NCBI GenBank assembly: GCA_019247515.1
Contig: JAFAOS010000529.1
Span: forward strand, 1-64,000
Reading direction: 5' to 3'
DNA: 64,000 nt
Source of the DNA: Chloroflexota bacterium
Lineage (GTDB): Bacteria > Chloroflexota > UBA6077 > CF-72
Shown here: positions 3,886-49,849 of the stretch, in pieces
Numbering within the stretch: the stretch's first letter is position 1
How the letters are laid out: every line of letters starts with the position of its first letter
Made by a program: the position numbers and the translations under genes
The notes under the pieces: model-generated
What the model was told of the DNA's origin: nothing
The model's input: only the letters and a program-made list of their open reading frames with translations
The model's database searches: none

Positions 3886-4015
3886 CTTCTCTTTCAAGAG
3901 AAGATTTTGCCCCTTCATGCGGTACAGACGCGCCAGCGAACTGCATCACGCTGGCGCGCCCGTTCGGCCCTCAGGGTCACAGATTCCACCTGCGGTGGAG
4001 CCCTTCAGCTGAGCT
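3886..4015 (-). repeat. Family A intergenic repeat, diverged copy
   Basis: Single diverged copy of the two-hairpin element. It has CTTCTCTTTCAAGAGAAG (3886-3903, perfect palindrome), a private inner hairpin GCGCCAGCG...CGCTGGCGC (3930-3957, 9-bp stem) and TCCACCTGCGGTGGA (3985-3999). Read on the minus strand it follows the stop of the PEP-type gene and precedes the MFS gene, the same orientation relative to its neighbours as most other copies. Confidence 0.75.
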
Positions 4016-6877: not shown

Positions 6878-7350
6878 GCTGACCAGGTCTGCTGTCTGTT
6901 CGGAGAAGAATTGCCGGCACTGCGAAATATGGCGGCCATAAACGTGAGCTAGCGCCCTCTCCACGAACGCAGGTTCAGTGATTCCACCTACGGTGGAGCC
7001 CTTCGAGAGGTTTTTCGTCGACCTGCTACGGTGGAGCCCTTCGAGAGGTTTTCATCGACCTGATAACGGGCTGCTGACGAAGATCTGCTTCTCTGCAGAG
7101 AAGATTTGTCGGCACCGCGAAAGGTGGCGGCCACAAGCGGCAGCTAGCGCCCTGTCGACGAACGCAGGTTCAGTGATTCCACCTACGGTGGAGCCCTTCG
7201 AGAGCGTTCCAGCAACCTGCTACGGTGGAGCCTTCGAGAGGTTTTTCGTCAACCTGCCAACGGCTTGCTGACGAGGTCTGCTTCTCTGCAGAAAAGAATT
7301 GCCGGCACTTCGAGAGGTTTCCATCAACCTGCCACCTTGAGCCCGTCGAA
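6878..7350. repeat. Family A repeat block, two full copies plus fragments
   Basis: This fills the 540-bp gene-free gap. It holds TCCACCTACGGTGGA at 6983-6997 and 7178-7192, CTTCTCTGCAGAGAAG at 7088-7103, a decayed version of the same hairpin at 7281-7296, and extra fragments of the 'CTACGGTGGAGCCCTTCGAG' end at about 7025 and 7218. The copies are degenerate relative to those at 17.1 and 21 kb, so this block looks older. Its orientation is opposite to that of both flanking plus-strand genes, the only such case in the window. The ORF-track proteins here (6978..7271 and the first 62 codons of 7225..7935) are repeat translations, not genes. Confidence 0.8.
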
Positions 7351-8002: not shown

Positions 8003-9667
8003 ATGCCGCGAGTACAAGCGCCATTGGTGGCGGCGGGCGCACCATCGCGTGCTGCACCGCAACACGGGCCCGCCACCCAGGTGCTCATCGTCGGCGCAGG
8101 ACCGGTTGGGCTGACCCTGGCGCTCGACCTCGGCCAGCGCGGCGTGCGCTGCACCCTCGTCGAGCGCAATCCGACCTCGATTCAGTTACCCAAGATGGAG
8201 CGCTGCAACGGCCGCACGATGGAGATCTACCGTCGTCTGGGAATTGCCGAGACCGTGCGTGCGGCGGGCCTGCCGCGCGAAGCGCCGATGGACGTATTTC
8301 TCACAACTTCGCTTGCCGACCCGCCGCTGGTCCACCTGCCGTACCCATCAGTTGCGGACGCCAGAGCCGACATCGCGGCTCATAATGACGGCACGCGGTT
8401 GCTGGAGCCGTACCAGCTCATCTCGCAGTACACACTCGAGCCACTGCTGCGGTCGCTCGTCGAAAGACTGCCGAGCGTGGACGTGAGATTCGGATGTGAA
8501 TTGCTGGCGTATACCCAGAATTCTGACGGTGTGGTCGCCTCGATCGACTCGGGCAAGGGCCCGACCACGCTGCAAGCGAGTTATCTCGTCGGCTGCGACG
8601 GCGGCTCCAGCACCGTCCGCAAGCAGGCCGGTATTCAGCTCCACGGCCGCGGCGGGATCCGCACGCTGCGCCAGGCGCTGTTTTATTGCCCCGACCTCTA
8701 CGAGCGTCTCCCGTTCGGCAAGGGCCGCCACTACCACATCGCCAGGCCGCCGTTGTTCCCCTTCATCATCCTGCAGGACAGCACCCGTCACTGGACCCTG
8801 CACGCGGCGGCCGCCAGCGACGCCGAGCTGGCGCGGATTTTCGCCGCCAGCCTGGGGATGCCACTCCCGTTCGACGTGCTGTCTGTCAATGAATGGACAC
8901 AGCACCTGCTGTGCGCCGACCGCTACCGGGATGGACGCGCGTTCATCGCCGGCGACGCGGCCCACCTGGTAATCCCCACCGGCGGACTGGGCATGAATAC
9001 CGGCGTCGGCGACGCGGTCGACCTGGCCTGGAAACTGGCTGGCACCCTCGCCGGGTGGGGCGGACCTGGCTTGCTGGAGTCCTACGAACCGGAGCGCCGG
9101 CCAATTGGACTCCGCAATATCAAGGCCTCCGGAGCCGCGATGGCCGGCCGCGACTCGTGGCGCGCGGCGCGTGGCGCGGAGATGGCGCGTCTGTTCGACG
9201 CCGAGCAGCGCAAGGTGACGGAGATCCAGGGGATCGAAGCCGGCTACCAGTACGTCGATTCGCCCATCATCTGGCCCGAAGACGGCGAGCGACCGGACCC
9301 TGACGCCGCCCGATACACGCCGACTACGTGGCCCGGGGCGCGACTGCCGCACGTCTGGTTAGAGGATGGAACCGCGCTGCACGACCGGCTCGGAGTGGGG
9401 TACACGCTGCTGCGGCTCGGCGGCACGAGCGACACCTGGGGTTTGGAAAATGCAGTCCGCCAGACCGGTGCGCCGCTGGACGTGCTCGAGATCGGCGACC
9501 GCGCGGCGCGCGAAGTGTACGGATGCGACCTGGTGCTTGTGCGTCCGGACCTCCACGTCGCCTGGCGGGGCAATTCCGCGCCGGCGGAGGCGGAGGCAAT
9601 CGCCAGTCGAGTCACCGGTTGGGAGGGGCATCGACCACCTCTCCCACGCGGAGAGGGAGAAGCCTAA
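8003..9667 (+). CDS. FAD-dependent aromatic monooxygenase (MhpA / PHBH fold)
   Basis: A 554-aa class A flavoprotein monooxygenase. The FAD Rossmann motif is 'VLIVGAGPVGLTLALDLGQR' near residues 27-46; 'LVGCDGGSSTVRKQAG' is the DG motif, and 'RAFIAGDAAHLVIPTGGLGM' the second FAD-binding GD motif. The C-terminal 130 residues ('LGVGYTLLRLGG', 'DLVLVRPDLHVAWRG') match the thioredoxin-like dimerisation domain of phenol and 3-(3-hydroxyphenyl)propionate hydroxylases. Expected reaction: NAD(P)H- and O2-dependent ring hydroxylation of a phenolic compound. The N-terminus has about 25 extra residues before the FAD motif. The last residues (PPLPRGEGEA) are encoded by a family C repeat, so the natural C-terminus was probably altered by repeat insertion. 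Confidence 0.9.
   Translation: MPRVQAPLVAAGAPSRAAPQHGPATQVLIVGAGPVGLTLALDLGQRGVRCTLVERNPTSIQLPKMERCNGRTMEIYRRLGIAETVRAAGLPREAPMDVFLTTSLADPPLVHLPYPSVADARADIAAHNDGTRLLEPYQLISQYTLEPLLRSLVERLPSVDVRFGCELLAYTQNSDGVVASIDSGKGPTTLQASYLVGCDGGSSTVRKQAGIQLHGRGGIRTLRQALFYCPDLYERLPFGKGRHYHIARPPLFPFIILQDSTRHWTLHAAAASDAELARIFAASLGMPLPFDVLSVNEWTQHLLCADRYRDGRAFIAGDAAHLVIPTGGLGMNTGVGDAVDLAWKLAGTLAGWGGPGLLESYEPERRPIGLRNIKASGAAMAGRDSWRAARGAEMARLFDAEQRKVTEIQGIEAGYQYVDSPIIWPEDGERPDPDAARYTPTTWPGARLPHVWLEDGTALHDRLGVGYTLLRLGGTSDTWGLENAVRQTGAPLDVLEIGDRAAREVYGCDLVLVRPDLHVAWRGNSAPAEAEAIASRVTGWEGHRPPLPRGEGEA
9638..9657. terminator. Family C hairpin at a convergent junction
   Basis: CCTCTCC (9638-9644) pairs with GGAGAGG (9650-9656). 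It lies inside the last codons of the monooxygenase and 17 bp from the stop of the convergent LysM gene, so it may serve as a bidirectional terminator (inference). Confidence 0.5.
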
Positions 9668-9673
9668 TTTAAT

Positions 9674-10273
9674 TTAAGAATCCGGTGGTTTGCCGGTTGG
9701 AATGAACAGCCGGAGTCCGGCGACAATGTGATCTGGGTCCGCCAGCGCATTGGCGGTCACCACCGCGGTCACATCCACGTTGTATTCCAGGGCAATGGAG
9801 CGGAGTGTCTCCCCCGGCGCCACGATGTGCAGGACTCCGTCGGTACTCGGAATCTCCAGCTCTGAACCCGGCTGGAGCAGATCAGGATCATCCAGCTCGT
9901 TGACCGACGCGAGCGTCGCCGGACTCAACCCTGCCCGAGCGGCGATCGACTCCAGGCTATCCCCCGCTTGCACCACGTAGCGGCGTCGCGCGGCCTGTGG
10001 GGCCGTCGTCGCCGCGGGCCGCGCCGCCGAGGTGGCGTTGGCCTGGCTTCTGACGGCCCCGGCGGCCGCCGCCGACGTTCCGACGGCCGCTGGACGAGGC
10101 GCCGGCACGCCACCTACCCCACTCGTGCCGACAATTCGGAACAGGATGCCGACGACCGCGACGACCAGGACCAGGCTGCCGAGCAGCAGCCAGTTCGATC
10201 CTGGCCCCCGACCACGCCCATGCGCGCTGCGCTCGGCGAGCACCTGGCTGAGCAGCCGCTCATTACCGTCCAT
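9674..10273 (-). CDS. Membrane-anchored protein with two LysM domains
   Basis: About 199 aa from ATG 10273; the ORF track start (TTG 10315) adds 14 residues with no extra support. One membrane anchor near the N-terminus ('WLLLGSLVLVVAVVGILFRI') is followed by a low-complexity Ala/Pro linker, then two LysM modules: 'RYVVQAGDSLESIAARAGLS...LLQPGSELEIP' and 'LHIVAPGETLRSIALEYNVD...IVAGLRLFIP'. LysM domains bind N-acetylglucosamine-containing glycans such as peptidoglycan, so the protein probably tethers the membrane to the wall. No catalytic domain is attached. It ends 6 bp from the convergent monooxygenase. Confidence 0.88.
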   Translation of the reverse strand: MDGNERLLSQVLAERSAHGRGRGPGSNWLLLGSLVLVVAVVGILFRIVGTSGVGGVPAPRPAAVGTSAAAAGAVRSQANATSAARPAATTAPQAARRRYVVQAGDSLESIAARAGLSPATLASVNELDDPDLLQPGSELEIPSTDGVLHIVAPGETLRSIALEYNVDVTAVVTANALADPDHIVAGLRLFIPTGKPPDS

Positions 10274-10354
10274 GCCGTCGGCGTCAATCGTAGACCAAGT
10301 GCGTGCCGCGTCCAAGGCTTGAGCAGGAGCCTGGACGGGCCGCCGCTCAACTGC

Positions 10355-10984
10355 TCAAGGGCTCGGGCAATCGGCGCGGGTCGACGACCCGAGCTGGATA
10401 TCGGCCACCTGCCAGTCAACGCCTGGCTTCTGCAGGATGTAGGTCTGCTCGCTGGTCTCGATCAGGCAACGGGCGCGATGATCGTCGGCGCCGCGCTCGT
10501 CGTAGGTCCAGCGTTCGCGCGTCTGCACCTGCGCCTCGTCCGGTCCAGGGCTCGTGGTGGTGACCACGTTCAGGTCGTAGCCTGAATCATCGGCCAGGTG
10601 CAGCCCGCCCGACAGCAGGTGTTCGACCTCGGGGCGCACCACGCTGAGCGCGGATGGCCCGAACGCGTCGCTCAGCGCTCGCAAGCGCTGATCGGTCGGT
10701 TCGCGTTCGGCGGCGAGCACCAGGCTCAAGCTGCGATCGACCGCGGCCGCGGGGCTGCTGGTGTACGCCAGCGCGGTGGCCGTCGCCGCCTGCATCTCGG
10801 CCTGCGCGGTGACCGCGGCTTCGGCGGTCGCCGCGCGGGCCTCGGCCTGGCCGACCCGCGCCTCGCTGACCTGCAAGGCCTGATCGCGCTGATTTGCCCA
10901 GAGCACGACCGCGACCAGCAACAGCAGCGCGATCAGCGTCATCCAGGCGGGAACGACAGTGGACATTGCCATAGACGGCCCCAT
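10355..10984 (-). CDS. Single-pass membrane protein with coiled coil, unknown function
   Basis: I do not recognise the family. From ATG 10984 (GGGGGAT 6 nt upstream) it encodes 209 aa: a short N-terminus, one membrane helix ('PAWMTLIALLLLVAVVLWAN'), an Ala/Glu-rich coiled coil ('SEARVGQAEARAATAEAAV'), then a soluble domain of about 120 residues with several Trp and two Cys ('TRERWTYDERGADDHRARC', 'TYILQKPGVDWQVADIQLG'). The final domain resembles a SnoaL / nuclear-transport-factor-like fold in its pattern (inference, weak). The ORF-track start at 11449 is the shadow of the NAT gene. It lies 31 bp downstream of the NAT gene in the same direction and may be the fourth gene of that operon. Confidence 0.7.
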   Translation of the reverse strand: MGPSMAMSTVVPAWMTLIALLLLVAVVLWANQRDQALQVSEARVGQAEARAATAEAAVTAQAEMQAATATALAYTSSPAAAVDRSLSLVLAAEREPTDQRLRALSDAFGPSALSVVRPEVEHLLSGGLHLADDSGYDLNVVTTTSPGPDEAQVQTRERWTYDERGADDHRARCLIETSEQTYILQKPGVDWQVADIQLGSSTRADCPSP

Positions 10985-11015
10985 TGTGCATCCCCCGAGG
11001 CATGCGAGCGAAGAG

Positions 11016-11810
11016 CTAGCGAGCCGCGAGGACGTTTCTGGCGCGCTGGATGGGCAATGCCGGCACGTGGAACACGTCCGCGGCGAGCCGCGCGTACTCG
11101 TCTGAGTCGGCGATGCGCGTGACTGACTTGCCGTCAGGCGTGAAGTGGCGCAGCTCATCATCGCGCAGTGACCAGACTTCCTCGGCGTCGCAGCGGGTGA
11201 GCACGAGGTTGTCCACGACCCAGCTCTGGCCCACGGTGTGGTGGTGCTGATAGGCGGCCTCGCGAATGCTGACGTCTGCCTCGCGCAGGTCGTATCTGCA
11301 GAACGGCACCCAGGCGTCGTCGATCCAGCGGTCCTGGATCCAGTCATCGGAATCCGGGTCCGGACCGAACCGATACGCGAGACCGGCGTAGCGGACCTCA
11401 CTCTGACCATCGAGTGGAATCGGATCCAGAAATGGTGCGCCATTCCCAACGTCGACCAGGTAGCGGGACCCCTCGAGGTCCACGATCAGCGCCTGGTGTG
11501 AGCCTGGCCAACTGATCTGGGCATTGATGGGTCGGGCTTGAAACCCGAAGGAGCGGAGGACGCGAAGGAACGTCGCGACCACTTCGAAGCAGACGCCACC
11601 ACCGCGCCGGTCGACCCATGCTTGCAGGAGCGCGTCGGTGTCGAGGCCGGGCACCGGGCCGAACGGATGCGCGGCGCGGCGCAAGATCGAGGTGATGCTT
11701 TCGAACGGGACGGTGCGGACCTGGGCGCGCGTCAGCTGCCCGAGCCCTTCCAGCGTCACCGGAGGTTGTCCCTTGAAACCAGGTCTGAGAAGATTCAGGT
11801 ACGCCTGCAC
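11016..11810 (-). CDS. Arylamine N-acetyltransferase (NAT)
   Basis: The Cys-His-Asp triad is visible: RGGGVCFE (Cys about 74), 'PGSHQALIVDL' (His about 105) and 'YLVDVGNGAPF' (Asp about 120), with the family's 'VRTVPFESI' segment at 31-39. NATs transfer an acetyl group from acetyl-CoA to arylamines, arylhydrazines or related substrates in the cytosol. I place the start at GTG 11810 (VQAYLNLLRPG, about 264 aa) because family members begin a few residues before the AYL motif. GTG at 11858 or 11861, overlapping the stop of the FUSC gene, is a good alternative that would couple translation. Third gene of the PTPS-FUSC-NAT operon. Confidence 0.88.
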   Translation of the reverse strand: MQAYLNLLRPGFKGQPPVTLEGLGQLTRAQVRTVPFESITSILRRAAHPFGPVPGLDTDALLQAWVDRRGGGVCFEVVATFLRVLRSFGFQARPINAQISWPGSHQALIVDLEGSRYLVDVGNGAPFLDPIPLDGQSEVRYAGLAYRFGPDPDSDDWIQDRWIDDAWVPFCRYDLREADVSIREAAYQHHHTVGQSWVVDNLVLTRCDAEEVWSLRDDELRHFTPDGKSVTRIADSDEYARLAADVFHVPALPIQRARNVLAAR

Positions 11811-11848
11811 GCGATCACTGTAGCGGCTTTCTAGCGGCGACGGAGCGA

Positions 11849-14074
11849 CTAACGCCACCACGGCATTCGGCTGGCGGCGAGTGTCTCGGCCACTGGAGTC
11901 TCCAGATCGTGGAGCAGGCTCTCCAGCTGGCCAATCCAATCGGCGCTGGAGGCCAGCCCGATGGCCGAGCGCAGCGCCTCCGGCGAGGCCGCTGTCGCCG
12001 CGGCTGACAGACCGGCGAGCGCGGCATTGCGCAGCTCCATCGACGCGTCGTCGGGCTCCGTCACCCGCAACGCCCGGCCACTCCGAATCTCCGCGGCCAT
12101 CCGCACGATGCTGTCCACCGCGTCCCCCGCAACTCTCCCCACAACATGGGCCGGAGGTCCCGCTTCCGCGGCCCTGTAGTCGCGCGCCGTCAGCGAGTCG
12201 ATCACTTCGCCGATCAGTCGGAAGTGCTTGCCACCGCTCAGCAGTGTCGCCCACACTTCAATGGCAGGCGACTGCCGACCTCGCTCGTGGAGAAAAAGCT
12301 CGAAAACCTCCTGTGCGCGGATCGCTTGTGTGTGCGCCAGGTCGTGCGCATCCTCAGCCGCACCGTCGTCGGAATCTGCGCTGTTGTCCACCAGCATCTG
12401 CCGGAAGCTGAAGGACAGTGAGCCCGCTCCCGCGTCATAGAGCGAGGCGACCGCGTCGCGGAGCTGACCCCGCGCACCCCGCGGCCACAGCATCAGCGCC
12501 ACCAGAGCGCTGATCCCGACGCCCAGCGCCGCGTTTTGTAAGCGTACGAACCCGATCTGCCAATCCGCCGGAGCCAGAATGTTGAAGATCACCACCACCA
12601 GCATGCTGAATGCCGCCTGTCCGACCACGAAGTGGACCGCCGCGGGCGTGTACGCAGCCAGAAAAACGAGAATTGGCAGCACAATCCAGAGCACCCACGG
12701 TTCGCTGCCCGTCACTCCGACGAATGGCATCGCGATCAGCACACCCACGGCGGTGCCACTGACCGCCTGGAGCGCGGTCCGGCCGGTAGCAGACGCGTTG
12801 CTGCGCAGCGCGGAGAGCGTGCCGAGCACCACCCAGAACGCAAACGAGAGTCCCAGCAAGCCAGTCACCAGCACAGCCAGGGTCACCGCCAGCGACGTCC
12901 GCAACGTGTTGCGCAGCGCGATGGACGCCGGCGTCAGCTCTTCCCAGAACGTGCTCCAGACGCCGCGACGGGTGGCGACCTGATCCGGTCCGGTTGGCGG
13001 TAAACCGGCCACCACCTCCGCATTCTGCGCAATGCTCAGCACCATGAACGACATCCGCCGCATCGGATACGAAGCTGAGAGTCCATCGAGCACGGACTCC
13101 GGCGTCGCGCCCGCCTGCAGTTGCTCCGCCGCCCAGCGGTCCAGGGCGGTGCGATGCGCGTCGCGGGCCGCGACCAGAGGCTCGATGTCGTGGGCGTCAC
13201 CGCCACCCTCCAGCAGGTCGGCGCTGGCGTGCAATGCGCGAACAACCGCTGCTTGCAGCACGCGCTCGTCGTCCACCACGACGGTGGACTCCACCGCCGT
13301 CGCGGACTCCGCGAAGGTGAGGGCTCGGCTCAACTCCGGTGCCAGCTCCGCCAGCGCGCGGTCACGCCGCGTAGCGCCGGACGGGCGCCGCTGCGCGACG
13401 ACGAATCCGCGCTGCAACACGGCCAATTGCTGACGCGCGGCGGACTCCAGGCGCGGAGTCGCCTGGTTGGGGGCGGCAATGGTGTCGGCGACCGCGCGGA
13501 TTACCGACGCCGCGGTGGCCCGCAGCGCCACGTGACCCGAACGCGGCCAGAGCAGCCAGGCCGCCAGCACCGCCGCGATGCCGGCGGTGGACCAGCCCGC
13601 GATGCGCGTCGGCAGCGCGTCGATACCGGCCGGGCTGGTGACGGACAGGACGACTGCCAGCAGGAGTGCCATCTGCGCGCTCAGGTAATAGCCGCCGAGT
13701 ATCCCCAGGCCGGCGACGCCAAATGCGACCACCGCCGCGACGCCGACCGCGAGCGGCAAGCTGACGGAGGCCAGCGTCCCGATCACGATCAGAACGATGC
13801 CAGCCAACGCCGTCAACACGTAGGCGAGCAGACGATCGCGTGTCTTGCCGCCGAAATCGGCGAAGACCAGGAGCGCCATCGCGCCAAAGACCAGGAATGT
13901 TGAAAACGCGCGCCCGAGATCCATGATCGTCGCGAACCCGAGCAGCGACGGCACGACGACGCCCGCGCGCAAACCGCGGCGCAGGCTGGCGTAGCCCGGA
14001 TCGTGCACCGATTCGAGCAGAAGGCCCGGCGCGTGCGTGAGCCAGTGCCAGCGGCGGCTTTCAGCCAGGGTCAC
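11849..14074 (-). CDS. FUSC family membrane protein (aromatic acid exporter-like)
   Basis: About 741 aa. I start at GTG 14074, whose GTGA overlaps the stop of the PTPS-like gene; the ORF-track start at 14629 reads through that gene in another frame. Architecture is the two-half FUSC layout: an N-terminal cluster of about six helices ('LDLGRAFSTFLVFGAMALLV' to 'AGIAAVLAAWLLWPRSG'), a soluble helical region, a second cluster ('RNTLRTSLAVTLAVLVTGLL' to 'VALMLWPRGARGQLRDA') and a soluble C-terminal tail. Relatives include YccS/AaeB and plant ALMT-like proteins that move aromatic carboxylates. Lying between a pterin-like enzyme and an arylamine acetyltransferase, it may export a pterin or aryl compound (inference). 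Confidence 0.85.
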   Translation of the reverse strand: MTLAESRRWHWLTHAPGLLLESVHDPGYASLRRGLRAGVVVPSLLGFATIMDLGRAFSTFLVFGAMALLVFADFGGKTRDRLLAYVLTALAGIVLIVIGTLASVSLPLAVGVAAVVAFGVAGLGILGGYYLSAQMALLLAVVLSVTSPAGIDALPTRIAGWSTAGIAAVLAAWLLWPRSGHVALRATAASVIRAVADTIAAPNQATPRLESAARQQLAVLQRGFVVAQRRPSGATRRDRALAELAPELSRALTFAESATAVESTVVVDDERVLQAAVVRALHASADLLEGGGDAHDIEPLVAARDAHRTALDRWAAEQLQAGATPESVLDGLSASYPMRRMSFMVLSIAQNAEVVAGLPPTGPDQVATRRGVWSTFWEELTPASIALRNTLRTSLAVTLAVLVTGLLGLSFAFWVVLGTLSALRSNASATGRTALQAVSGTAVGVLIAMPFVGVTGSEPWVLWIVLPILVFLAAYTPAAVHFVVGQAAFSMLVVVIFNILAPADWQIGFVRLQNAALGVGISALVALMLWPRGARGQLRDAVASLYDAGAGSLSFSFRQMLVDNSADSDDGAAEDAHDLAHTQAIRAQEVFELFLHERGRQSPAIEVWATLLSGGKHFRLIGEVIDSLTARDYRAAEAGPPAHVVGRVAGDAVDSIVRMAAEIRSGRALRVTEPDDASMELRNAALAGLSAAATAASPEALRSAIGLASSADWIGQLESLLHDLETPVAETLAASRMPWWR

Positions 14075-14454
14075 GGATTGAATGTCTGGTGATACGCCGC
14101 CGACGCGCGCTCGTTCTCCCAGAGCCGCACGCCGATACTTGACAGATTCGGGGCTGCGAGCTCGTCCGCGAGCCGCCGGCACACGATCCGCGCGAAATGC
14201 TCGAGACTCGGGTTCAGCCCGCCGAACTCCGGCAGGTCGTTGAGTAACCGATCGGCGTAGCTGGCACGCAGGTCGGCGAGGGCGCCTTCCACCTTGACGA
14301 TGTCGACCAGATAGCCGTGCTCGTCCAGGGTCGGTCCATCGAGCCGAACCTCGAGGACGTAATGGTGCGAGTTGCGCTGGTTTTCGGGTCCCCAGTCGCC
14401 ACCAAACAAAAAATGCTGGGCGATAAAGTCGGTGCGGAGAATGACGGAGTACAT
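14071..14454 (-). CDS. 6-pyruvoyl-tetrahydropterin synthase-like protein, variant active site
   Basis: A 127-aa protein of the 6-PTPS / QueD family (T-fold): 'DFIAQHFLFGGDWGPENQ', 'HHYVLEVRLDGPTLDEHGYL', 'VDIVKVEGAL', 'LNDLPEFGGLNPSLEHFARI' and 'VRLWENERASAAY' follow the family's conserved order. The catalytic Cys expected before the HGHNY zinc motif is absent (sequence ENQRNSHHY), the first His of that motif is Asn, and the DH of the usual LDHxxLND is ADR. It is therefore either a divergent synthase or a non-canonical pterin binder. First gene of the operon; its start is 41 bp from the divergent GT-C gene and its stop overlaps the FUSC start by 4 nt. Confidence 0.82.
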   Translation of the reverse strand: MYSVILRTDFIAQHFLFGGDWGPENQRNSHHYVLEVRLDGPTLDEHGYLVDIVKVEGALADLRASYADRLLNDLPEFGGLNPSLEHFARIVCRRLADELAAPNLSSIGVRLWENERASAAYHQTFNP

Positions 14455-14495
14455 CTCGGCGATCTTCCGAATGGTAACTTACTATCCTCTGATAC

Positions 14496-16064
14496 GTGTG
14501 GCGTCGCGGTATTGCGGTGCAGTTGGGTGCACTGGTCGCCATCGGATTGAGCCTGCGCGTGTGGGTCCTGCTGGGCACGCAACGCCTCAGCGCCGACGAG
14601 GCCATCCCCGGCTTGATGGCGCGCCACATCTTCTACGCGCACGAGCTACCGGTCTTTTACTGGGGGCAGACGTACTTTGGCGCCCTCGAATCCTATCTGC
14701 TGGCGGCCCTCTTCGGCGTGCTGGGCTTCCATCCCTGGCTCGTTTTCGCTCCAGCGACGCTGGCGTCGGTGGCCCTCATCCCACTGACGTGGATGTTGGC
14801 CGAGTACCTGGGACCGTCGCCGGCCGGCCTGATTGCCGCGGTGCCAGTCGCGATCACTCCACCTGTCCTGGGCAGACTCCTCGTCAACGCGGGCGGTGGT
14901 TTCGCACTCGGATTTGCGCTGCAGTTGACAACCCTGCTGCTGGTCATGCGCAGCATGCGCGCGTCCTCACCGCGGTTCGGCACACTTGCGCTGGCCGGAC
15001 TCGCGGGCGGCGCGGCTGCCTGGGTGTGGCAGCCAGCCATGCTCACTCTGCCCCTGCTGTTGATCGTTCCGTTCGCGTCAGTACACCAGTTTCGCAGTAC
15101 CCGAGGTCTGGCGTGCGTGACGCCGGTGTTGGTTGGGTTGCTCCCAATGCTGGTGTACAACGCCGCCTCCGACTGGCCGACGGCGACCGCGCTACTCCGC
15201 AAGTTCGACCAGCAGTCACTACCGGTCGCCGGGCTGTTGGCCCAGATCCAGCAGTTCACTTCGACGACCCTCGTCGCCCTGGGCGGAGGCGACGAGTCTT
15301 TCGGTGGCTCCAATCCAGCGGAGTCCGTGGTCCTCGCGGCGGTGCTGATTGTCGGTCCCGTGCTGATGACGTGGCACGCGTGGCGACGCCCGTGCAGCGT
15401 GTCGCGACAACGGGTGACCTCGATGGCCGTCCTGGTGGTGGCCACCACGGTCGGACTCGTGGTGGCGCACGGCGGTGCTCGTTACCTGGTGGGGGTGTTC
15501 CTCGCCGCGGCGGCGCTGAGTGGCGCGACGTGGGGCCTGCTCGTCCAGCGCGCGCCGCGAGCAGGTCACGCGCTCGTCTCGGTGTGGCTGGTGGCATGCG
15601 TGATCCCCAACTTGGCGGGTTACGCCAACCTCCGGGTTGTCATGCCGCCCGACCACCTGTCGGGGCTGGATGAGACGCACGCGGCGCTGGAAGCGCTCGA
15701 GCAACGCGGTCTTACAACCGGCTATGCAGATTACTGGACCGCGTATCCAATCACCTACGTTTCGGGCGAGCAGGTCATCGCGGCCCCCTCGCTGCCACCC
15801 CTGTATTCGGGTCGCCTCGATCGATACCCCGCGTACACCGCTCAGGTCGACGCGGTGGCCGACGCGCGGCGTCTGTTCCTGCTCGTGGATGCGCGCTGCG
15901 CGGCGCAGGCCTACCTGGACTCACTGACATCCGAAGGTGCCACCTACCGGGCAGATCCCGTGGCGCGCTGGGTGTTGATCTGGGATATCCAGCCGCCGCG
16001 TGGCGACGAGGGCGGTGTCCTTGCCGCCGTGCGCGCGGCGATAAGTTCGCAGCAAACGTGCTGA
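14496..16064 (+). CDS. GT-C fold membrane glycosyltransferase-like protein
   Basis: A 522-aa protein with about 10-12 hydrophobic segments. The N-terminus matches the GT-C / PMT-like pattern: TM1 'LVAIGLSLRVWVLLGTQ' then a periplasmic acidic motif 'LSADEAIPGLMARHI' where the Asp-Glu pair is the expected catalytic or metal site, then 'FYWGQTYFGALESYLLAALF'. A soluble extracytoplasmic C-terminal domain of about 150 residues follows the last helix ('DYWTAYPITYVSGEQVIAAP'). Family members transfer sugars from polyprenyl-phosphate donors outside the membrane; acceptor unknown. Start is GTG 14496. Nearby upstream ACTATCCTCTGATAC could hold a -10 (weak). Confidence 0.78.
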   Translation: MWRRGIAVQLGALVAIGLSLRVWVLLGTQRLSADEAIPGLMARHIFYAHELPVFYWGQTYFGALESYLLAALFGVLGFHPWLVFAPATLASVALIPLTWMLAEYLGPSPAGLIAAVPVAITPPVLGRLLVNAGGGFALGFALQLTTLLLVMRSMRASSPRFGTLALAGLAGGAAAWVWQPAMLTLPLLLIVPFASVHQFRSTRGLACVTPVLVGLLPMLVYNAASDWPTATALLRKFDQQSLPVAGLLAQIQQFTSTTLVALGGGDESFGGSNPAESVVLAAVLIVGPVLMTWHAWRRPCSVSRQRVTSMAVLVVATTVGLVVAHGGARYLVGVFLAAAALSGATWGLLVQRAPRAGHALVSVWLVACVIPNLAGYANLRVVMPPDHLSGLDETHAALEALEQRGLTTGYADYWTAYPITYVSGEQVIAAPSLPPLYSGRLDRYPAYTAQVDAVADARRLFLLVDARCAAQAYLDSLTSEGATYRADPVARWVLIWDIQPPRGDEGGVLAAVRAAISSQQTC

Positions 16065-16084
16065 ATTCGGGGCATCATACGGGC

Positions 16085-16513
16085 ATGCCACTTTCCGACT
16101 CCCTGATCACTCCTCAGCTCGAGCAGCTGTTGAAGGAGCCGTCGTATGCCCAGATTGCGACGCTCATGCCCGACGGCTCGCCACAAGTGACACAGGTCTG
16201 GGTCGACACGGATGGCACCTACGTCATTGTCAACAGCGTCGCCACCCATCAGAAGGTGAGAAACATCCGACGCGATCCGCGGGTTGCGATCAACGTCCAC
16301 GATCCGTCGAAACCGTTTCGGGTGGCCAACATCCGCGGCCGGGTAGTGGAGATCACCGTCGACGGCGCGGACCAGCACATTGACCAGCTTGCCAGGAAGT
16401 ACATGGGCGCCGACGCGTACCCGTTTCGCAGGCCGGGCCAGCAGCGGGTGGTGCTGAAGATCCGCCCGCAGACGATCCATTCGATGGGCCTCGACGGCGA
16501 CAGAACCATTTGA
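16085..16513 (+). CDS. PPOX-class (probably F420-dependent) oxidoreductase
   Basis: About 142 aa with a split-barrel flavin-binding fold: 'SYAQIATLMPDGSPQVTQVW' is the typical N-terminal strand pair of the PPOX class TIGR03618-like proteins, followed by 'TYVIVNSVATHQKVRNIRRD', 'VAINVHDPSKPFRVANIRGR' and 'QQRVVLKIRPQTIHSMG'. Members reduce or oxidise small substrates with F420 or FMN. I start at ATG 16085 (MPLSDSLITP); the ORF track adds nine residues read from the leader. Lies 20 bp after the GT-C gene in the same direction. Confidence 0.87.
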   Translation: MPLSDSLITPQLEQLLKEPSYAQIATLMPDGSPQVTQVWVDTDGTYVIVNSVATHQKVRNIRRDPRVAINVHDPSKPFRVANIRGRVVEITVDGADQHIDQLARKYMGADAYPFRRPGQQRVVLKIRPQTIHSMGLDGDRTI

Positions 16514-16572
16514 TTCGTGCTGCAAATGAGTTCCAATTGCCGCTCAGCCGGAACACGCGATATTGTGTGCCG

Positions 16573-17142
16573 ATGCGGACGCTTGCTTCTGGCGCGCTTT
16601 CGGCTCTCGCTTTGATCCTGGCCCTGCTCCCTGGCTCGGCCGCCGCTGACGGCGGTTGGCTCGACCAGCCGCTCGGGAACTGGAACAAGGCCGGCATGGA
16701 TATTCCTCAGGCGCCGGCGATGGACCCGTCGACGAACCCGCAGTGCTTGCCTCAGAAACGGCCTGTCGATACCGCGGCCGACCAGGCGCTCAGCGACGCA
16801 GGCTGGACGCTGTACGCTGGTTACAACGCCGGCTGGGACACGTACGTGGTCCGCGGGTTGTCTGGGTATGACGGCATGTGTCGCCCGCTGGGGTACAACG
16901 TGTTCGTTTTCGTCGACGGCCAGTTTGCGGGCACGATCTCACCCGATCTGATGGATTCGCGCACCGACGGTACCGGGGACGTCACCTCATTCGCCGCCAA
17001 AGACGCGATCAGCGCCGAGTTTCAGCGCTACGCGCCCACGGACCCGCTGTGCTGTCCATCTGGCGGCGCCAGCGTGTTCTATCAGGTGAATCGAACTCCC
17101 AACGGCCCCGTGCTGGTCCCGCAAAACGTGACAGCTCACTAG
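16573..17142 (+). CDS. Secreted LppP/LprE-domain protein
   Basis: About 189 aa from ATG 16573. The signal peptide MRTLASGALSALALILALLP ends near GSAAADGG; there is no lipobox Cys, unlike mycobacterial LppP/LprE lipoproteins. The conserved core is clear: 'DQALSDAGWTLYAGYNAGWD', 'CRPLGYNVFVFVDGQFAGTI', 'SPDLMDSRTDGTGDV', and a Cys-Cys pair in 'TDPLCCPSGGASVFYQVN'. The function of the domain is unknown; in actinobacteria these proteins sit on the cell surface. A pair of family A repeats starts 3 nt after its stop. Confidence 0.78.
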   Translation: MRTLASGALSALALILALLPGSAAADGGWLDQPLGNWNKAGMDIPQAPAMDPSTNPQCLPQKRPVDTAADQALSDAGWTLYAGYNAGWDTYVVRGLSGYDGMCRPLGYNVFVFVDGQFAGTISPDLMDSRTDGTGDVTSFAAKDAISAEFQRYAPTDPLCCPSGGASVFYQVNRTPNGPVLVPQNVTAH

Positions 17143-17145
17143 CAA

Positions 17146-17421
17146 CGATGAAAAACGTCCCGCAGGGCTCCACCGTAGGTGGATTCACTGAACCTGCGTT
17201 CCTCAGCGGCGCGCTAGCTCACGTTTGTGGCCGTCACCTTCCGACGTGGCGGCAATACTTCTCTGGAGAGAAGCAGACTGACAGGCAGGTGATGAAAAAC
17301 GTCCCGAAGGGCTCCACCGTAGGTGGATTCACTGAAGCTGCGTTCCTCAGCGGCGCGCTAGCTCACGTTTGTGGCCGTCACCTTCCGACGTGGCGGCAAT
17401 TCTTCTCTGGAGAGAAGCAGA
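17146..17421 (+). repeat. Family A repeat, tandem pair (period 144 bp)
   Basis: Two nearly identical copies. TCCACCGTAGGTGGA occurs at 17169-17183 and 17313-17327, CTTCTCTGGAGAGAAG at 17258-17273 and 17402-17417. The copies differ at only a few positions, so the duplication is recent. The element begins right after the stop of the LppP-like gene and ends about 40 bp before the amidohydrolase start; both genes are on the plus strand. Reverse orientation to the copies at 6.9 and 21 kb, matching the reversed gene direction here. Confidence 0.88.
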
Positions 17422-17461
17422 TCAATTCAGCAACGTGCTGAGCAGCAAGGAGTCAAACGGC

Positions 17462-18979
17462 ATGGCGACAATCGTTCGGGGGAGCCGCTCGGCGGACATT
17501 CACAGGCAGCTCGACCATCCGGTGGTGGACGGCGACGCGCACTGGCTCGAGTCGGTCCCCGTCTTCCACGATTACCTGAAAGCCACCGGCGGGCAGAGCA
17601 TGCTCGACGAGTACGTCAAGACGCAGGATGGCGCCGACCGCTGGTTCCAGACGCCGGCCGAGGAGCGCTTCCGCCAGCGCATGGGCCGCCCCAACTACTG
17701 GTTCGGCCCCGGCAATACCGTGGACCGCGCGACGTCGATGATCCCGCGACTCATGTACGAGCGACTGCCGGACTTCGGCATCGACTTCGCGGTTGTCTAC
17801 CCCACCATGGGACTGGGCGGCTTTCAGGGCGCCAATCGGGTGCAGGGCGCCGGTCTGACCAGCGACCTGCGGCGCTGCTGCGTGCGCGCCTACAACATCA
17901 TGGCCGCCGACATGTTCCGCGCGTATGCCGATCGCATGACGCCGGCGGCAATTATCCCGACCGTCACGCCGCAAGAAGGCGTCGAAGAGGCTGAGTACGC
18001 CGTGAACACCCTGGGCCTGAAGGTCGGCATGTTGCACGGCGTCATCCAGCGACCCATTCCCGCCGACGAGGACTGGCAACCGGACCCGCGCCGACGCCGC
18101 CACTACTTCGACAACCTGGCGCTCGACAGTCCCTACGACTACGACCCGTTGTGGGCCAAAATGGTGGAGCTTGGCCTGGCCTACACCAGTCACAGCGGCA
18201 GCAGCAGCGACACGGCAACCCGCACCTCACCCAGCAGCGTCGTCCAGAGCCGGGTGGGCCACTTCGCGCAGGCGCATCAAATCGCGCTGAAAGGCCTTCT
18301 GCTGGGGGGAGTTCCGCACCGGTTCCCGACGCTGAATTTCGCGTTCCTGGAGGCCGGCATCGCGTGGGCCGTGAACGTGTGCATCGACCTGATGCTGATC
18401 TTCACCAAGTTTGGCCGAGAAGGTCTGGAGCGCGATCTTCATCCGCACAACCTGGACCCCCGCCAGTTGCGCGAGCTGTTCGACGAATACGCTACCGACG
18501 AGCAGTTCCGGGGCAGGATCGACCGCGTCTTCGACGAAAACAATTTGTGGCCCAATCAGCCGGGGAAGACGGCGGAAGACCTGATCGTGCGCGCCGCGGA
18601 CTGGGACGAGTTCGCCGCCGCGCACATCACACGTCCAGAGCAGATCCGCGAGCTGTTCATGCACCAGTTCTATTTCGGCTGCGAGTCAGACGATCCGACC
18701 GTCCGCTGGGCATTCGACGAGCACTCGTCGATGGGCACGCGCTTCAAGCCGATCTTCAGCTCGGATATTTCACACTTTGATGTGACGGACATGACCGAGG
18801 TGCTGGAGGAAGCCTGGGAGCTGGTGGAGCACGAGCTGGTGGACGAACAGGGCTTCCGCGAGCTGACGTTCACGAATCCGGTGACGCTCCATGGCCGCAT
18901 GAATCCTGACTTCTTCAAAGGCACGGTAGTGGAAGCGGAGGCCGAGCGCGAGCTGGCCAGCCCCGCGGTCGGAGTTTAA
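17462..18979 (+). CDS. Amidohydrolase_2 family metal-dependent hydrolase (505 aa)
   Basis: Start ATG 17462 is set by AAGGAG 9 nt upstream; the ORF track's 31 extra residues come from the repeat. The N-terminal 'HPVVDGDAHWLESVPVF' carries the D-x-D/H-x-H-like metal motif (here DGDAHW), as in Amidohydro_2 proteins such as ACMSD and gamma-resorcylate decarboxylase. 'LAYTSHSGSSSD' and 'RFPTLNFAFLEAGIAWAVNV' (equivalent of the FPxLxFxxxExG segment) and 'FKPIFSSDISHFDVTDM' (SDxxH) complete the barrel. It is longer than the typical 330-400 aa member. Expected role: hydrolysis or decarboxylation of a cyclic organic acid. The cupin gene follows after 6 nt, suggesting that they act together. Confidence 0.86.
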   Translation: MATIVRGSRSADIHRQLDHPVVDGDAHWLESVPVFHDYLKATGGQSMLDEYVKTQDGADRWFQTPAEERFRQRMGRPNYWFGPGNTVDRATSMIPRLMYERLPDFGIDFAVVYPTMGLGGFQGANRVQGAGLTSDLRRCCVRAYNIMAADMFRAYADRMTPAAIIPTVTPQEGVEEAEYAVNTLGLKVGMLHGVIQRPIPADEDWQPDPRRRRHYFDNLALDSPYDYDPLWAKMVELGLAYTSHSGSSSDTATRTSPSSVVQSRVGHFAQAHQIALKGLLLGGVPHRFPTLNFAFLEAGIAWAVNVCIDLMLIFTKFGREGLERDLHPHNLDPRQLRELFDEYATDEQFRGRIDRVFDENNLWPNQPGKTAEDLIVRAADWDEFAAAHITRPEQIRELFMHQFYFGCESDDPTVRWAFDEHSSMGTRFKPIFSSDISHFDVTDMTEVLEEAWELVEHELVDEQGFRELTFTNPVTLHGRMNPDFFKGTVVEAEAERELASPAVGV

Positions 18980-18985
18980 TGCACT

Positions 18986-19465
18986 ATGGCCACGATCATC
19001 GCCAACGCGCAACCGGTAACCGACCGAGCCAGCACGTTCAGCGTGCGCGACGCGCCGCTGTTGTCGGAAGGCCAGACGATGACGTTGCTGGCGCAGGCCA
19101 CGGACCTGAAGATCCACCTGAAGGTCCACGCTCCGGGTTGGAATGGCGAGCTGGTCCAGCACCATCATCCGCACGAGGACCACATGTTTTTTGTGCTGGC
19201 GGGCGAGGCGACGTTCCAGGATGAACGCGGCAAGCAGACCCGGGTCGGCCCGATGGAGGGCATCATGCTGCCCAAAGGCGTGATCTATTCGTTCGAAAAC
19301 AGTGGCACTGAGAACCTGGTCATCCTGCGAGCGGGCCTGGTCATCAGGCCCTCGAGCGGCGTGGTGCTGACCGATAAAAGCGCCGACCGGGCGGCGATGC
19401 GCCACGTCATCGACCACTTCGTGGCCAGCGGCACGACCTTCGCCGAGGGCCGCCCTGAGAAGTAG
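18986..19465 (+). CDS. Cupin_2 domain protein
   Basis: A 159-aa protein with one cupin barrel: motif 1 'QHHHPHEDHMFFVLAGEATF' carries the His/Glu metal ligands, and motif 2 'MLPKGVIYSFENSGTENLV' follows. Small cupins act as dioxygenases, isomerases or ligand sensors. It is 6 nt after the amidohydrolase and clearly co-transcribed with it, so it probably works on the same compound. Its stop codon touches the large family C inverted repeat. Confidence 0.88.
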   Translation: MATIIANAQPVTDRASTFSVRDAPLLSEGQTMTLLAQATDLKIHLKVHAPGWNGELVQHHHPHEDHMFFVLAGEATFQDERGKQTRVGPMEGIMLPKGVIYSFENSGTENLVILRAGLVIRPSSGVVLTDKSADRAAMRHVIDHFVASGTTFAEGRPEK

Positions 19466-19546
19466 CCCTCACCCCAGCCCTCTCCCAGAGGAAGAGGGAG
19501 GGCTACTTGGCCTCCCTCTCCCTCTGGGAGAGGGTCGGGGTGAGGG
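19466..19546. terminator. Family C long inverted repeat, 36-bp arms, convergent junction
   Basis: Left arm 19466-19501 and right arm 19511-19546 are inverted copies with only about three mismatches, separated by a 9-nt loop (GCTACTTGG). The arms fill the whole space between the cupin stop codon (plus) and the DUF4331 stop codon (minus). A cruciform or strong bidirectional terminator is the obvious reading, though there is no U-tract. Confidence 0.8.
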
Positions 19547-19555
19547 AGCAGTTGC

Positions 19556-20926
19556 TTACGCTGCCGCGAACTGGTGGGCGTAGCCTTCGTTGGGCGTCCC
19601 CACGTACGGGAAGCTGGCAAGAAAGGGGGAGGTGGGCGACGGCATGGTGCCGTCCTTGAGCTGTCCGGCAGCGTCGTCGGGCTTGTAGCTGGGTGCAACC
19701 AGGGGCAGCGTGACACCGGCGATGGCCCGCAGCTCGATCGCGACGATGTCGTCGACCAGGCGTCGACCGTTCGGGAAGCCGGCCGCGTCGCCCGCCACGA
19801 GACCAATCGGATTCGGCTGCTGCGTCGGAGGTACGGCGACATTCAATCGCAGCATGTCCGCCTGGGTCGCGCTGGTGAAGTTCTGGAACCCGGGCACGAC
19901 GCCGGCCGGAATACCGGTCAGCAAAATGGCTACCAGGTCAGCTCGCGGCATGTTGACCGCTGCCAGGTTGGGAAACACATTCGGGTACAGCACCGGCAGC
20001 AGCTTCTGGAGCTCAGGCGTTTGATAGTGCTGAAGGAACTGGCTCTCCTGGTTGACGGGTGTCTGGTTCCACAAGTCCTTGGACCACAGCGGGATCAGGA
20101 CCTCGTTGACCAGTGGATTGCCCAGACGCGAAACCTGGATCCACGGCCCCATGTCCTGCGGCGCGGTGCCCATGTTGCGCACGCGTGACTGCTGGCGACT
20201 GGCGGTGGACCACACCCCGATGGTGGCGGTGGAGTCCATCACTCCGTCTGGCCTGGCGCCAGTGCTCGTCAGCTGTTCGATCGGGACCTGAATGGCAATC
20301 GTATGCACGTTGAAGCCCTGCAGCTCGTTGAGTCCGTTGGCGGCAGCCGTTGGAATCAGGTGCAGGTTCTGGAAGGGTCGCAGGTCGCCGAGGTCGAAGA
20401 TGGAACCCAGGTCCACCCAGAAGGGGTCCGCGCGTTGGCCGGCGAAGACCTTGATGCCACCCGGCAGCGAGTGGATCGCCGCGTTGGCCAGGTCGTCGTA
20501 CTTGGGAGTAGAGCGCGGCCCGATGCGACACGGCGGAGTGGCCAGGTCCATGCCGAGGACGTCTGACCTGTCGCCCTGCACGCGTGTGACCGAGTAGAGC
20601 TGGCGCAGGTTCCAGTTGGGGTCCGTCAGCGACGTGATGGGACCCGTGTTGTACAGGAATGTGGTCTGGCTCTGGATATCGGTGGTGAAGCGGAATTGAA
20701 AGCTGATGTCCGGGTTGGCGCCAGGTGCATTGGAGACGTTGATCGAATACAGGACCGAGTCGCCGAAACGATAGAAATTCGGGCCGCCGGCCGGGTCCTG
20801 GCCGGGAATGAAGTTGGCGATCAACGTGACGGTGTCCGGCGCATCCGGACTGACGAACGCGTAGACGTCGGTATTGTCGGCCACGGGATCGGAGGCGATC
20901 TCGGGCGCTTCTCGGTGTGAGGACAT
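19556..20926 (-). CDS. DUF4331 domain protein
   Basis: About 456 aa from ATG 20926; the ORF track's first 29 residues come from the family A repeat. The N-terminus 'MSSHREAPEIASDPVADNTD' followed by 'VYAFVSPDAPDTVTLIANFI' and 'DPAGGPNFYRFGDSVLYSI' is the DUF4331 signature; the C-terminal 'FPNGRRLVDDIVAIELRAIA' also fits. The family is widespread in environmental bacteria and has no known activity. No signal peptide is visible, although many relatives are predicted extracellular. A small Tat protein gene lies upstream in the same direction, and family A repeats occupy the gap. Confidence 0.9.
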   Translation of the reverse strand: MSSHREAPEIASDPVADNTDVYAFVSPDAPDTVTLIANFIPGQDPAGGPNFYRFGDSVLYSINVSNAPGANPDISFQFRFTTDIQSQTTFLYNTGPITSLTDPNWNLRQLYSVTRVQGDRSDVLGMDLATPPCRIGPRSTPKYDDLANAAIHSLPGGIKVFAGQRADPFWVDLGSIFDLGDLRPFQNLHLIPTAAANGLNELQGFNVHTIAIQVPIEQLTSTGARPDGVMDSTATIGVWSTASRQQSRVRNMGTAPQDMGPWIQVSRLGNPLVNEVLIPLWSKDLWNQTPVNQESQFLQHYQTPELQKLLPVLYPNVFPNLAAVNMPRADLVAILLTGIPAGVVPGFQNFTSATQADMLRLNVAVPPTQQPNPIGLVAGDAAGFPNGRRLVDDIVAIELRAIAGVTLPLVAPSYKPDDAAGQLKDGTMPSPTSPFLASFPYVGTPNEGYAHQFAAA

Positions 20927-20939
20927 GGGAGTCTTGAAT

Positions 20940-21254
20940 CTCCTGACAGGTTGCTCAAAAAATCTGCTTCTCTTTAGAGAAGAATTGCCGGCACTGCGTA
21001 AGCTGGCGGCCACAAACGTGAGCTAGCGCCCTCGGACGAACGCAGGTTCAGTGATTCCACCTACGGTGGAGCCCTTCGGGAGGTTTTCATCAACTTGCTA
21101 AACAGGTTCCTGAAAAAAGGCTGCTTCTCTTTAGAGAAGAATTGCCGGCATTGCGTAAGCTGGCGGCCACAAACGTGAGCTAGCGCCCTCGGACGAACGC
21201 AGGTTCAGTGATTCCACCTACGGTGGAGCCCTTCGGGAGGTTTTCATCAACCTG
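20940..21254 (-). repeat. Family A repeat, tandem pair (period 157 bp)
   Basis: The best preserved pair. CTTCTCTTTAGAGAAG occurs at 20967-20982 and 21124-21139; TCCACCTACGGTGGA at 21056-21070 and 21213-21227. The period of 157 bp is exact for both hairpins. The sequence between the hairpins ('GCGGCCACAAACGTGAGCTA' and on) is identical in both copies. It runs precisely from the stop codon of the Tat mini-protein gene (21255) to just before the DUF4331 start, and both genes are on the minus strand. Confidence 0.9.
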
Positions 21255-21560
21255 CTAAGCGATCGCCTGATGCAGACTCTGCACGATGGCGCTGTTGGTG
21301 AACGGGATCGCCTGCTCGCCGACCAGGATGGTGCCCGCGCCCGTGGACGGGTCGTCGATATACACGACGAACGGCCGCCCGCCGACGACATTGACGACCG
21401 GCATGGGCGCTGGCGAGCTGGGCGCGGGCACCGGCTGGGCCGGCGTGCGCGTCCGCGAGTCGGCCAGAACTGGCAGCGGCGCTATGGCGCTGAGCGCGCC
21501 AATGGCCGCGACGCTGAGAGACGTCCGTGTGATGAATCCGCGGCGTGTAACAGATGGCAT
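21255..21560 (-). CDS. Small Tat-exported protein, unknown function
   Basis: A 101-aa protein from ATG 21560 (MPSVTRRGFITRTSLSVAAI). It has a twin-arginine signal (RRGFI), a hydrophobic stretch, and cleavage likely near 'PLPVLADS'. The mature part is a Pro-rich linker plus about 45 residues ('VVGGRPFVVYIDDPSTGAGT', 'ILVGEQAIPFTNSAIVQSLH'). I do not recognise a domain. The first 26 residues of the ORF-track protein are upstream sequence. Co-directional with DUF4331, so it may be exported for the same pathway. Confidence 0.72.
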   Translation of the reverse strand: MPSVTRRGFITRTSLSVAAIGALSAIAPLPVLADSRTRTPAQPVPAPSSPAPMPVVNVVGGRPFVVYIDDPSTGAGTILVGEQAIPFTNSAIVQSLHQAIA

Positions 21561-32112: not shown

Positions 32113-32162
32113 ATTGGAAAATGCTAGCCGACTACTTCCTCGCCGCCTGGTATAGCATCCCC

Positions 32163-32216
32163 TCAGTGGTGATTCCACCTGTGGTGGAGCCCTTCGAGAG
32201 GTTTTTCATCGACCCG
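32163..32216 (-). repeat. Family A repeat fragment
   Basis: Only the TCCACC hairpin end (TCCACCTGTGGTGGA at 32174-32188) and the GAGCCCTTCGAGAGG-TTTTTCATCGACCCG tail remain. It ends exactly at the stop codon of the minus-strand gene at 32217, the same junction as at 21255. Confidence 0.75.
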
Positions 32217-32957
32217 TCAGGGGTAGTAGTCGTAGTGGCCGATACTGGGGATGTACATCCCCGAGTGGATCATCTCTCGGGCTCGGTCGATCTCGGCGAA
32301 GTGCTTGTCCGTGTGCCGCCACGACCGTGAGACCGTGTGGAACTCGCGATACGCGGCGCACGGGTCCGGGTGGTCTGTGTAATACAGCAGCACCATCAGG
32401 TCGGGATCGCTGGGCGAGGCCAGTTTGACGGCGGCGGTGAACAGGCCGGTGTCCAGGATCATCGGCAGGTGGACAGACTCGTGCCACCTGGCGTAGCCGT
32501 CGCGCGCATCCGAATCAAGCAGCTTCATGACCACCAGCATCAGCGCCGAGGTCTGCGGCGCGAAGGTCGCCGCCTCGGCCGAGAGCTGCAGGCCGCGTCG
32601 CGCGTGGGCCGCAACCGGCACCAGGCGTTGGCCCCACGTGCGGTGGATGAATTGCATCGGCTGCATGCGTCCGAGCAGCGTCAGACGCTGCCCGAGCACC
32701 GAGAAATTGGACTCCAGCTCCGCCGGAGTGCCGCTGCTCCAGTACAGGTTGACGTATTCGCCGCCGTGGTGCTCCAGCCGACTCGCCGGCTGCTCCGCCA
32801 GCAGCTCGGGGGTAGCGACCCACCGTTGTGAGATGAAGATGTACGGCACGGTGCCGATCACTTCCGGCTTGTGATCCTGGTCGTGCCACAGACACACCTC
32901 GCGATGATGGCCCGCTTCGAAGTGGTACAGCGTCAGCGACGCGCTTCTGGCTTTCAT
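32217..32957 (-). CDS. Protein with dimeric alpha/beta-barrel (EthD-like) segment, unknown function
   Basis: A 246-aa protein, ATG 32957. I do not recognise a named family. It seems to contain two similar ferredoxin-like halves: residues 1-110 ('ASLTLYHFEAGHHREVCLWH', 'YIFISQRWVATPELLAEQPA') and 125-246 ('LMLVVMKLLDSDARDGYARW', 'HESVHLPMILDTGLFTAAVK', 'LLYYTDHPDPCAAYREFHTV'). The second, with W-H-xx-H-LP, resembles EthD/Dabb-type dimeric barrels that bind or modify aromatic or polyketide compounds. It lies upstream of the monooxygenase/VOC operon in the same direction, with a family A fragment between, so a link to that pathway is plausible. Confidence 0.65.
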   Translation of the reverse strand: MKARSASLTLYHFEAGHHREVCLWHDQDHKPEVIGTVPYIFISQRWVATPELLAEQPASRLEHHGGEYVNLYWSSGTPAELESNFSVLGQRLTLLGRMQPMQFIHRTWGQRLVPVAAHARRGLQLSAEAATFAPQTSALMLVVMKLLDSDARDGYARWHESVHLPMILDTGLFTAAVKLASPSDPDLMVLLYYTDHPDPCAAYREFHTVSRSWRHTDKHFAEIDRAREMIHSGMYIPSIGHYDYYP

Positions 32958-39219: not shown

Positions 39220-39345
39220 GGGAGACCCCTACAACCCCGATGGGTGGGGTCATCGACGGCGACGCTCGGGGGCGACCGACTGGTGGCGGATGACTTGGGT
39301 CGCGTCGACGGGTAGGGGAGACCCCTACGACCCCCAGTGGGATGG
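39205..39345 (+). repeat. Family B repeats (GTAGGGGAGACCCCTAC), two copies
   Basis: Perfect hairpins GTAGGGG-AGA-CCCCTAC at 39216-39232 and 39312-39328, each inside a longer shared unit (GTGTCGATNGGTAGGGGAGA...CCCCTACRACCCC). The first copy contains the stop codon of the monooxygenase gene. Confidence 0.88.
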
Positions 39346-41191: not shown

Positions 41192-41249
41192 CAGTATCTC
41201 CTGGTGCTAGTCATACCACGTTCCGCGCGTCATACCTCGCGCAAGGTCG

Positions 41250-41275
41250 CCAATTCCACCTACGGTGGAGCCCTC
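41250..41275 (-). repeat. Family A repeat fragment
   Basis: Contains TCCACCTACGGTGGA (41255-41269) and GAGCCC, with no second hairpin. It lies in the 146-bp gap between the two paralogous minus-strand amidohydrolase genes and has the usual orientation relative to them. Confidence 0.7.
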
Positions 41276-41337
41276 ACGTACCCTGGTCAGCGTCATCAAC
41301 CTCCACCTACGCTGGTCACGCTGTCTTCGGCGATTCG

Positions 41338-45707: not shown

Positions 45708-45749
45708 CCCTCACCCGCGCTTCGCGCGACCTCTCCCAGCGGGAGAGGT
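45708..45749. terminator. Family C repeat at a convergent junction
   Basis: CCCTCACCCGCGCTTCGCGC is followed by the perfect hairpin CCTCTCCC-AGC-GGGAGAGG (45730-45748). It lies 45 bp after the surface-protein stop and 30 bp from the stop of the convergent NHL gene. Confidence 0.65.
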
Positions 45750-49843: not shown

Positions 49844-49849
49844 GCTCTG

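Follow-up and report, generated by a model that had tools for sequence, protein, structure and literature searches.

In order to understand what the palindromic repeat at 19466-19546 is, and why it lies between the ends of two converging genes, we examined it within a window of 64,000 nucleotides (the whole stretch of DNA analysed here) from a draft Chloroflexota genome (8.3 Mb, 579 contigs, assembly 93% complete; below, the source genome). The repeat is an inverted pair of units, both of the classic type with a short second loop: the left arm occupies 19466-19501 on the minus strand and the right arm 19511-19546 on the plus strand, where it reads CCTCTCCC-TCT-GGGAGAGG-GTCG-GGGTGAGGG (19515-19546). 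The arms are 36 nt long, carry three mismatches (92% complementary) and enclose a 9-nt loop; as RNA, the pair is predicted to fold at -82 kcal/mol (z = -10). They start directly after the TAG (19463-19465) of a plus-strand gene for a cupin-domain protein (PF07883, 18986-19465), whose stop is the last base before the element, and finish 9 bp short of the stop of a converging minus-strand gene for a DUF4331 protein (PF14224, 19556-20926; our own gene calls). The preliminary description had the arms exactly filling the space between the two stop codons; their length and mismatches are as it gave them, but 9 bp are left on one side. The loci of relatives that carry the DUF4331 neighbor (Kribbella and others, scattered) contain the hairpin in no case.

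The core of the repeat, CCTCTCCC-N-GGGAGAGG, is found in the window at 19515-19533, 45730-45748, 60864-60882 and 60946-60964; the palindrome has five matches against 0.00 expected from dinucleotide shuffles, and CCCTCACCC stands at 19466, 19538 (minus strand), 45708, 60887 (minus strand) and 60924. A search across the 64 kb found no copies beyond four sites, which are flanked by convergent gene ends at 9667(+)/9674(-), 19465(+)/19556(-), 45663(+)/45779(-) and 60892(+)/60927(-), respectively, according to our own gene calls. The first site is a decayed hairpin (CCTCTCCCACGCGGAGAGG, 9638-9656) whose stem carries a single mismatch and which overlaps the 3' end of the plus-strand gene stopping at 9667. 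This remnant has no third arm, and the CCCTCACCC arm, described earlier as present at every site, is restricted to the sites at 19466, 45708 and 60851. The third site is a single minus-strand unit (45708-45748) of what we call the H type, in which the linker between the hairpin and the third arm is a hairpin itself (CGCGCGAAGCGCG). The fourth consists of a classic plus-strand unit (60864-60895), a spacer that is itself an inverted repeat (60896-60923, GCGTAT...GATACGC) and an inverted H-type partner on the minus strand (60924-60964). Both stop codons at 60851-60968 lie inside the element and each is the TGA of GGGTGAGGG: one, in the GGGTGAGGG of the classic unit, ends gene 59657-60892, and the other, in the CCCTCACCC of the partner, ends the minus-strand gene 60927-61856. 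Host genes ending at this TGA were seen at 60864-60964 and at loci L098, L028, L030 and L021, and the repeat therefore supplies stop codons and C-terminal residues.

A single loop base separates the segment 19514-19546 from TMECO no. 20 of Escherichia coli K-12 (Table 1, PMC4666352), which places the window repeat in BoxC (alternatively PIT element or TM motif); this G/C-rich motif for intrastrand triplexes has been reported from more than 260 genomes (PMC4666352). The same segment follows the TM-ECO consensus for a class II intrastrand triplex, CCCTCNCCC N3-6 GGGNGAGGG N3 GGGNGAGGG, its first loop being TCT and its second the 3-nt TCG, and the E. coli sequence, from which the window copy is that one loop base removed, forms a triplex in vitro (PMC4666352). 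In a 1.68-Mb sample of the source genome the second loop is exactly 3 nt in 35 units, and the hairpin-linker units, with 13-16 nt, exceed the consensus. An Rfam search of the window returned no match. Taking identity and placement jointly, we consider it highly probable that this is a palindrome of the BoxC/PIT/TM family with a placement biased to gene ends.

The whole source genome contains 244 core hairpins, compared with 6 for a reversed control pattern, and 112 full motifs, compared with 0 in the control. The full motif is distributed patchily, being present in 30 of 61 genomes (the source genome and 60 relatives); one congener (G001) has 112 and another (G002) has none. Of 5,426 E. coli genomes, 4,406 gave BLAST matches to 19440-19570, and phage records gave weak partial matches only. 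In a genome from the same order (G004) classic units occur in pairs 26-29 bp apart, their second loops TTA-like and TCG-like; in E. coli, units of type A and type B are paired and spaced in the same way.

Each BoxC unit consists of CCTCTCCC-(3)-GGGAGAGG, a linker and then GGGTGAGGG. The 1.68 Mb analysed at gene level include 98 hairpins in 66 clusters, and their units are of the two types described above: classic, with a second loop of 3-5 nt, and H, with a hairpin (CGCGCGCAGCGCG and variants) as the linker. Two or three units, mostly classic and H type in inverted orientation, are present in 29 of the 66 clusters. A complete copy is an inverted doublet of about 110 bp, in which one classic and one H unit are joined by a palindromic spacer, and either of its strands can form a single long hairpin. 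The spacer measures 37-39 bp in G001, where it is itself palindromic (GTGCGTACGAGC...GCTCGTACGCAC), and 20 to 43 bp in the source genome, and the same layout is found on Azospirillum and Xanthomonas replicons in a plasmid collection. The H-type helix is preserved in ten distinct sequences, all 138 cells pairing with no broken pair; 3 of its 14 pairs change on both sides, a covariation score reached by no shuffle. As RNA, doublets are predicted to fold at about -82 kcal/mol on either strand (z -7 to -10).

In order to relate these clusters to genes, we called genes with our own dicodon model trained on the genome over 1.68 Mb (20% of the draft), in which some contigs were chosen for holding copies and a subset picked by number agrees with the rest. 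Gene junctions hold 52 of the 66 clusters: 27 are convergent, 21 tandem and 4 divergent, compared with 17%, 55% and 27%, respectively, expected from intergenic bases. Both the convergent excess (P = 1.7e-8) and the divergent shortage (P = 8e-4) are pronounced, and the former persists when the four window sites are removed (23/48, P = 1.3e-6), on contigs picked by number alone (10/19, P = 5e-4) and when the genes are limited to high-scoring ones (P about 2e-5). Under a placement null that allows 40 nt of overhang, 9.0 +/- 2.7 convergent copies are expected against the 27 observed. Three other repeat families of the same genome are convergent at 7/30 (TTCCCCAGAGGGGACCC), 1/13 (GGTAGGGGAGACCCCTAC) and 7/19 (TTCCACCTACGGTGGAGCCCTTCGAGAGGTTTT) of their junction copies, and BoxC differs from them pooled (Fisher P = 0.003; 0.015 without the window sites). 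The convergent enrichment is genuine, and the preliminary description was right to regard the repeat as dispersed and enriched at convergent junctions rather than as random intergenic repeats: the count over 1.68 Mb puts convergent copies above expectation and divergent copies below it, with two of the other families showing no such bias. Its finding that four of four sites are convergent applies to the window; genome-wide the proportion is about half of the junction copies, and the four are a lucky sample of a genuine enrichment. At the finer scale, 60 bp or less remain beside the element in 21 of the 27 convergent copies, and 17 of the 21 tandem copies lie nearer to the upstream stop than to the downstream start. 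About ten clusters are located well inside called ORFs, and a copy is present at 27 of the 234 convergent junctions.

The other families are present in the window as follows. TTCCCCAGAGGGGACCC is repeated about 11 times head to tail, with a period of 35 bp, at 59138-59512, 3' of the plus-strand gene 58290-59126, and its core is also dispersed (41 clusters in 1.68 Mb). TTCCACCTACGGTGGAGCCCTTCGAGAGGTTTT is found at 6895-7332, 17147-17421, 20957-21258, 32161-32233, 41242-41276 and 3972-4006; its copies are long and partly tandem (131-157 bp), have no Rfam match and are absent from divergent junctions. The palindrome GGTAGGGGAGACCCCTAC is located at 39196-39342, 49843-49992 and 62745-62787 and is often paired about 96-100 bp apart.

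The bias recurs outside the source genome. In the congener G001, 9 of about 18 junction sites are convergent, a count in which one site was entered twice (L250/L251) and at least one (L259) is common to the source genome, so that the two samples are not wholly independent. We also looked up the genes flanking 18 published BoxC sites (L269-L285) of E. coli K-12 (NC_000913.3) and found 7 convergent, 9 tandem and 2 divergent; convergent junctions are 14.6% of the 205 junctions in four 50-kb stretches of that genome, which gives P = 0.010 by count. The seven convergent pairs are tauD/hemB, aaeR/tldD, frlR/yhfS, zntA/tusA, ilvC/ppiC, yjdP/phnP and fimH/gntP. This recount, on a small sample, leans against the published statement that BoxC has no correlation with gene orientation.

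The same congener gives a view of how stable the copies are, as flank comparison with the source genome yielded three informative junctions. A doublet of G001 (L266/L137) corresponds in the source genome to convergent genes with overlapping stops (17-bp), and another (L250/L125) to tandem genes with an ATGA overlap; at a shared convergent site (L259/L119) the source genome retains a decayed single unit. Since junctions occupied in G001 are empty in the source genome, BoxC behaves as dispersed DNA that turns over, and these alignments suggest that it is gained and lost at the species scale, empty sites alone not telling gain from loss. Mobilization by a RAYT, as in REP elements, was considered and rejected: the REP transposase domain PF01797 (Y1_Tnp) has no match in the source genome (draft 93% complete; E. 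coli control positive), and its presence is not associated with copy number across 61 genomes (9/19 vs 20/42). Inspection of the flanks of 52 sites revealed no conserved GTAG/CGTC at the hairpin foot. How a palindrome unlinked to any known REP transposase is spread becomes a question in its own right.

The explanation that we find most likely is a mixture, in which BoxC would be mobile palindromic DNA whose symmetric RNA hairpin at 3' ends is tolerated or confers a slight benefit. It would be non-autonomous DNA of the REP type, spreading, decaying and turning over among related species, and its junction copies would land or survive mostly just 3' of stop codons, above all between convergent genes. 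In transcripts a strong symmetric hairpin at the 3' end may protect that end of the mRNA and restrict read-through from both sides; a copy with these effects could be tolerated at 3' ends, or even of slight use, and harmful upstream of genes. The RNA role itself we propose tentatively.

Tolerance alone, with the palindrome inserting anywhere and being purged from promoters and coding sequence so that convergent gaps fill, is possible although we lean against it as the full account. It would explain the depletion of divergent gaps (4/52), the turnover between species and the copies in ORFs. However, most of the free bases belong to long convergent gaps, whereas for 21 of 27 copies the gap leaves no more than 60 bp over, and neither TTCCCCAGAGGGGACCC nor GGTAGGGGAGACCCCTAC shows the bias, the third family (7/19) leaning the same way.

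The preliminary description preferred a bidirectional terminator or transcription-collision element to a random repeat. Its premise of non-random placement stands, but selection for a terminator or collision buffer at convergent junctions is doubtful. The approximately threefold convergent enrichment, the copies abutting both stop codons, the strong hairpin predicted on either strand and the repetition of the bias in the congener and in E. coli are what such a function would lead one to expect, and the description of the palindrome in Enterobacter sp. 638 presumes this role (PMC2869309). On the other hand, 207 of 234 convergent junctions (88%) are empty, one orthologous convergent junction lacks the element, and some copies lie inside ORFs or between operon genes, 21 of the junction copies being tandem. 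The E. coli element had neither terminator nor promoter activity in a study as summarized where PMC4666352 cites it. Judged as a Rho-independent terminator, a GC-rich hairpin followed by a U-tract, BoxC has no U-tract: T residues 3' of convergent copies are about as frequent as in the background and form no run. A canonical intrinsic terminator is unlikely for this reason, and we rejected it also in view of the empty junctions. A terminator scan did not report 19466-19546, and its patterns in 9000-20500 were at shuffled level; a search of the literature for palindromic bidirectional terminators between convergent genes yielded no paper.

A broader version, in which the classic and H doublet is one family across several phyla, spread by an enzyme and selected at tight convergent pairs as a two-way 3'-end element, strikes us as improbable. 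Least probable of all is a role at the DNA level, with a cruciform, an intrastrand triplex or a topoisomerase/gyrase site absorbing positive supercoils between convergent genes. Supercoils do build up between such genes, and a gyrase or topoisomerase-site role has reportedly been proposed for some REP/BIME elements, but we know of no binding protein for BoxC. The purine-motif triplex layout is kept in classic units, in line with the in vitro triplex of the E. coli motif; however, footprinting gave no stable triplex in cells (PMC4666352), and hairpin-linker units would require a second loop of 13-16 nt.

Returning to mobile DNA with a possible RNA role at 3' ends, three known systems offer a comparison. 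REP/BIME/REPIN elements with RAYT are short palindromes in inverted doublets, found mainly between convergent and unidirectional ORFs and turning over between species (PMC3733652, PMC2817692), and conv-REPs are no more than 20 bp away from either 3' end (PMC3733652). BoxC shares the inverted doublets, the convergent 3'-end placement and the turnover, but is here without the GTAG/CGTC tag and without Y1_Tnp. The palindrome of Enterobacter sp. 638, CCCTCTCCCXX(X)GGGAGAGGG, is the same palindrome in another lineage, where it numbers about 100 copies, often grouped in twos or threes at gene 3' ends (PMC2869309). Its 3'-end placement, like the presumed terminator role, is thus already published; the passage that describes it gives no discussion of the third arm and no statistics on convergent junctions (PMC2869309). 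Apart from the placement claim and the question of spreading, the present repeats add a further population to those of a repeat already known. That the source genome, the congener and the E. coli recount share the convergent bias provides a concrete, testable claim on converging 3' ends, and the experiment would be easy in E. coli. BoxC of that species resembles the present repeat in its pyrimidine arm, purine arm and purine third arm GGGTGAGGG, in its inverted pairs of two unlike units, and in being intergenic, widespread and patchy. It differs in that the present population has some units with a hairpin linker, about 244 core hairpins (112 full motifs) against 23 full motifs there, about ten clusters inside called ORFs, unlike the E. 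coli set, and a clear convergent bias where the E. coli papers state no correlation with gene orientation.
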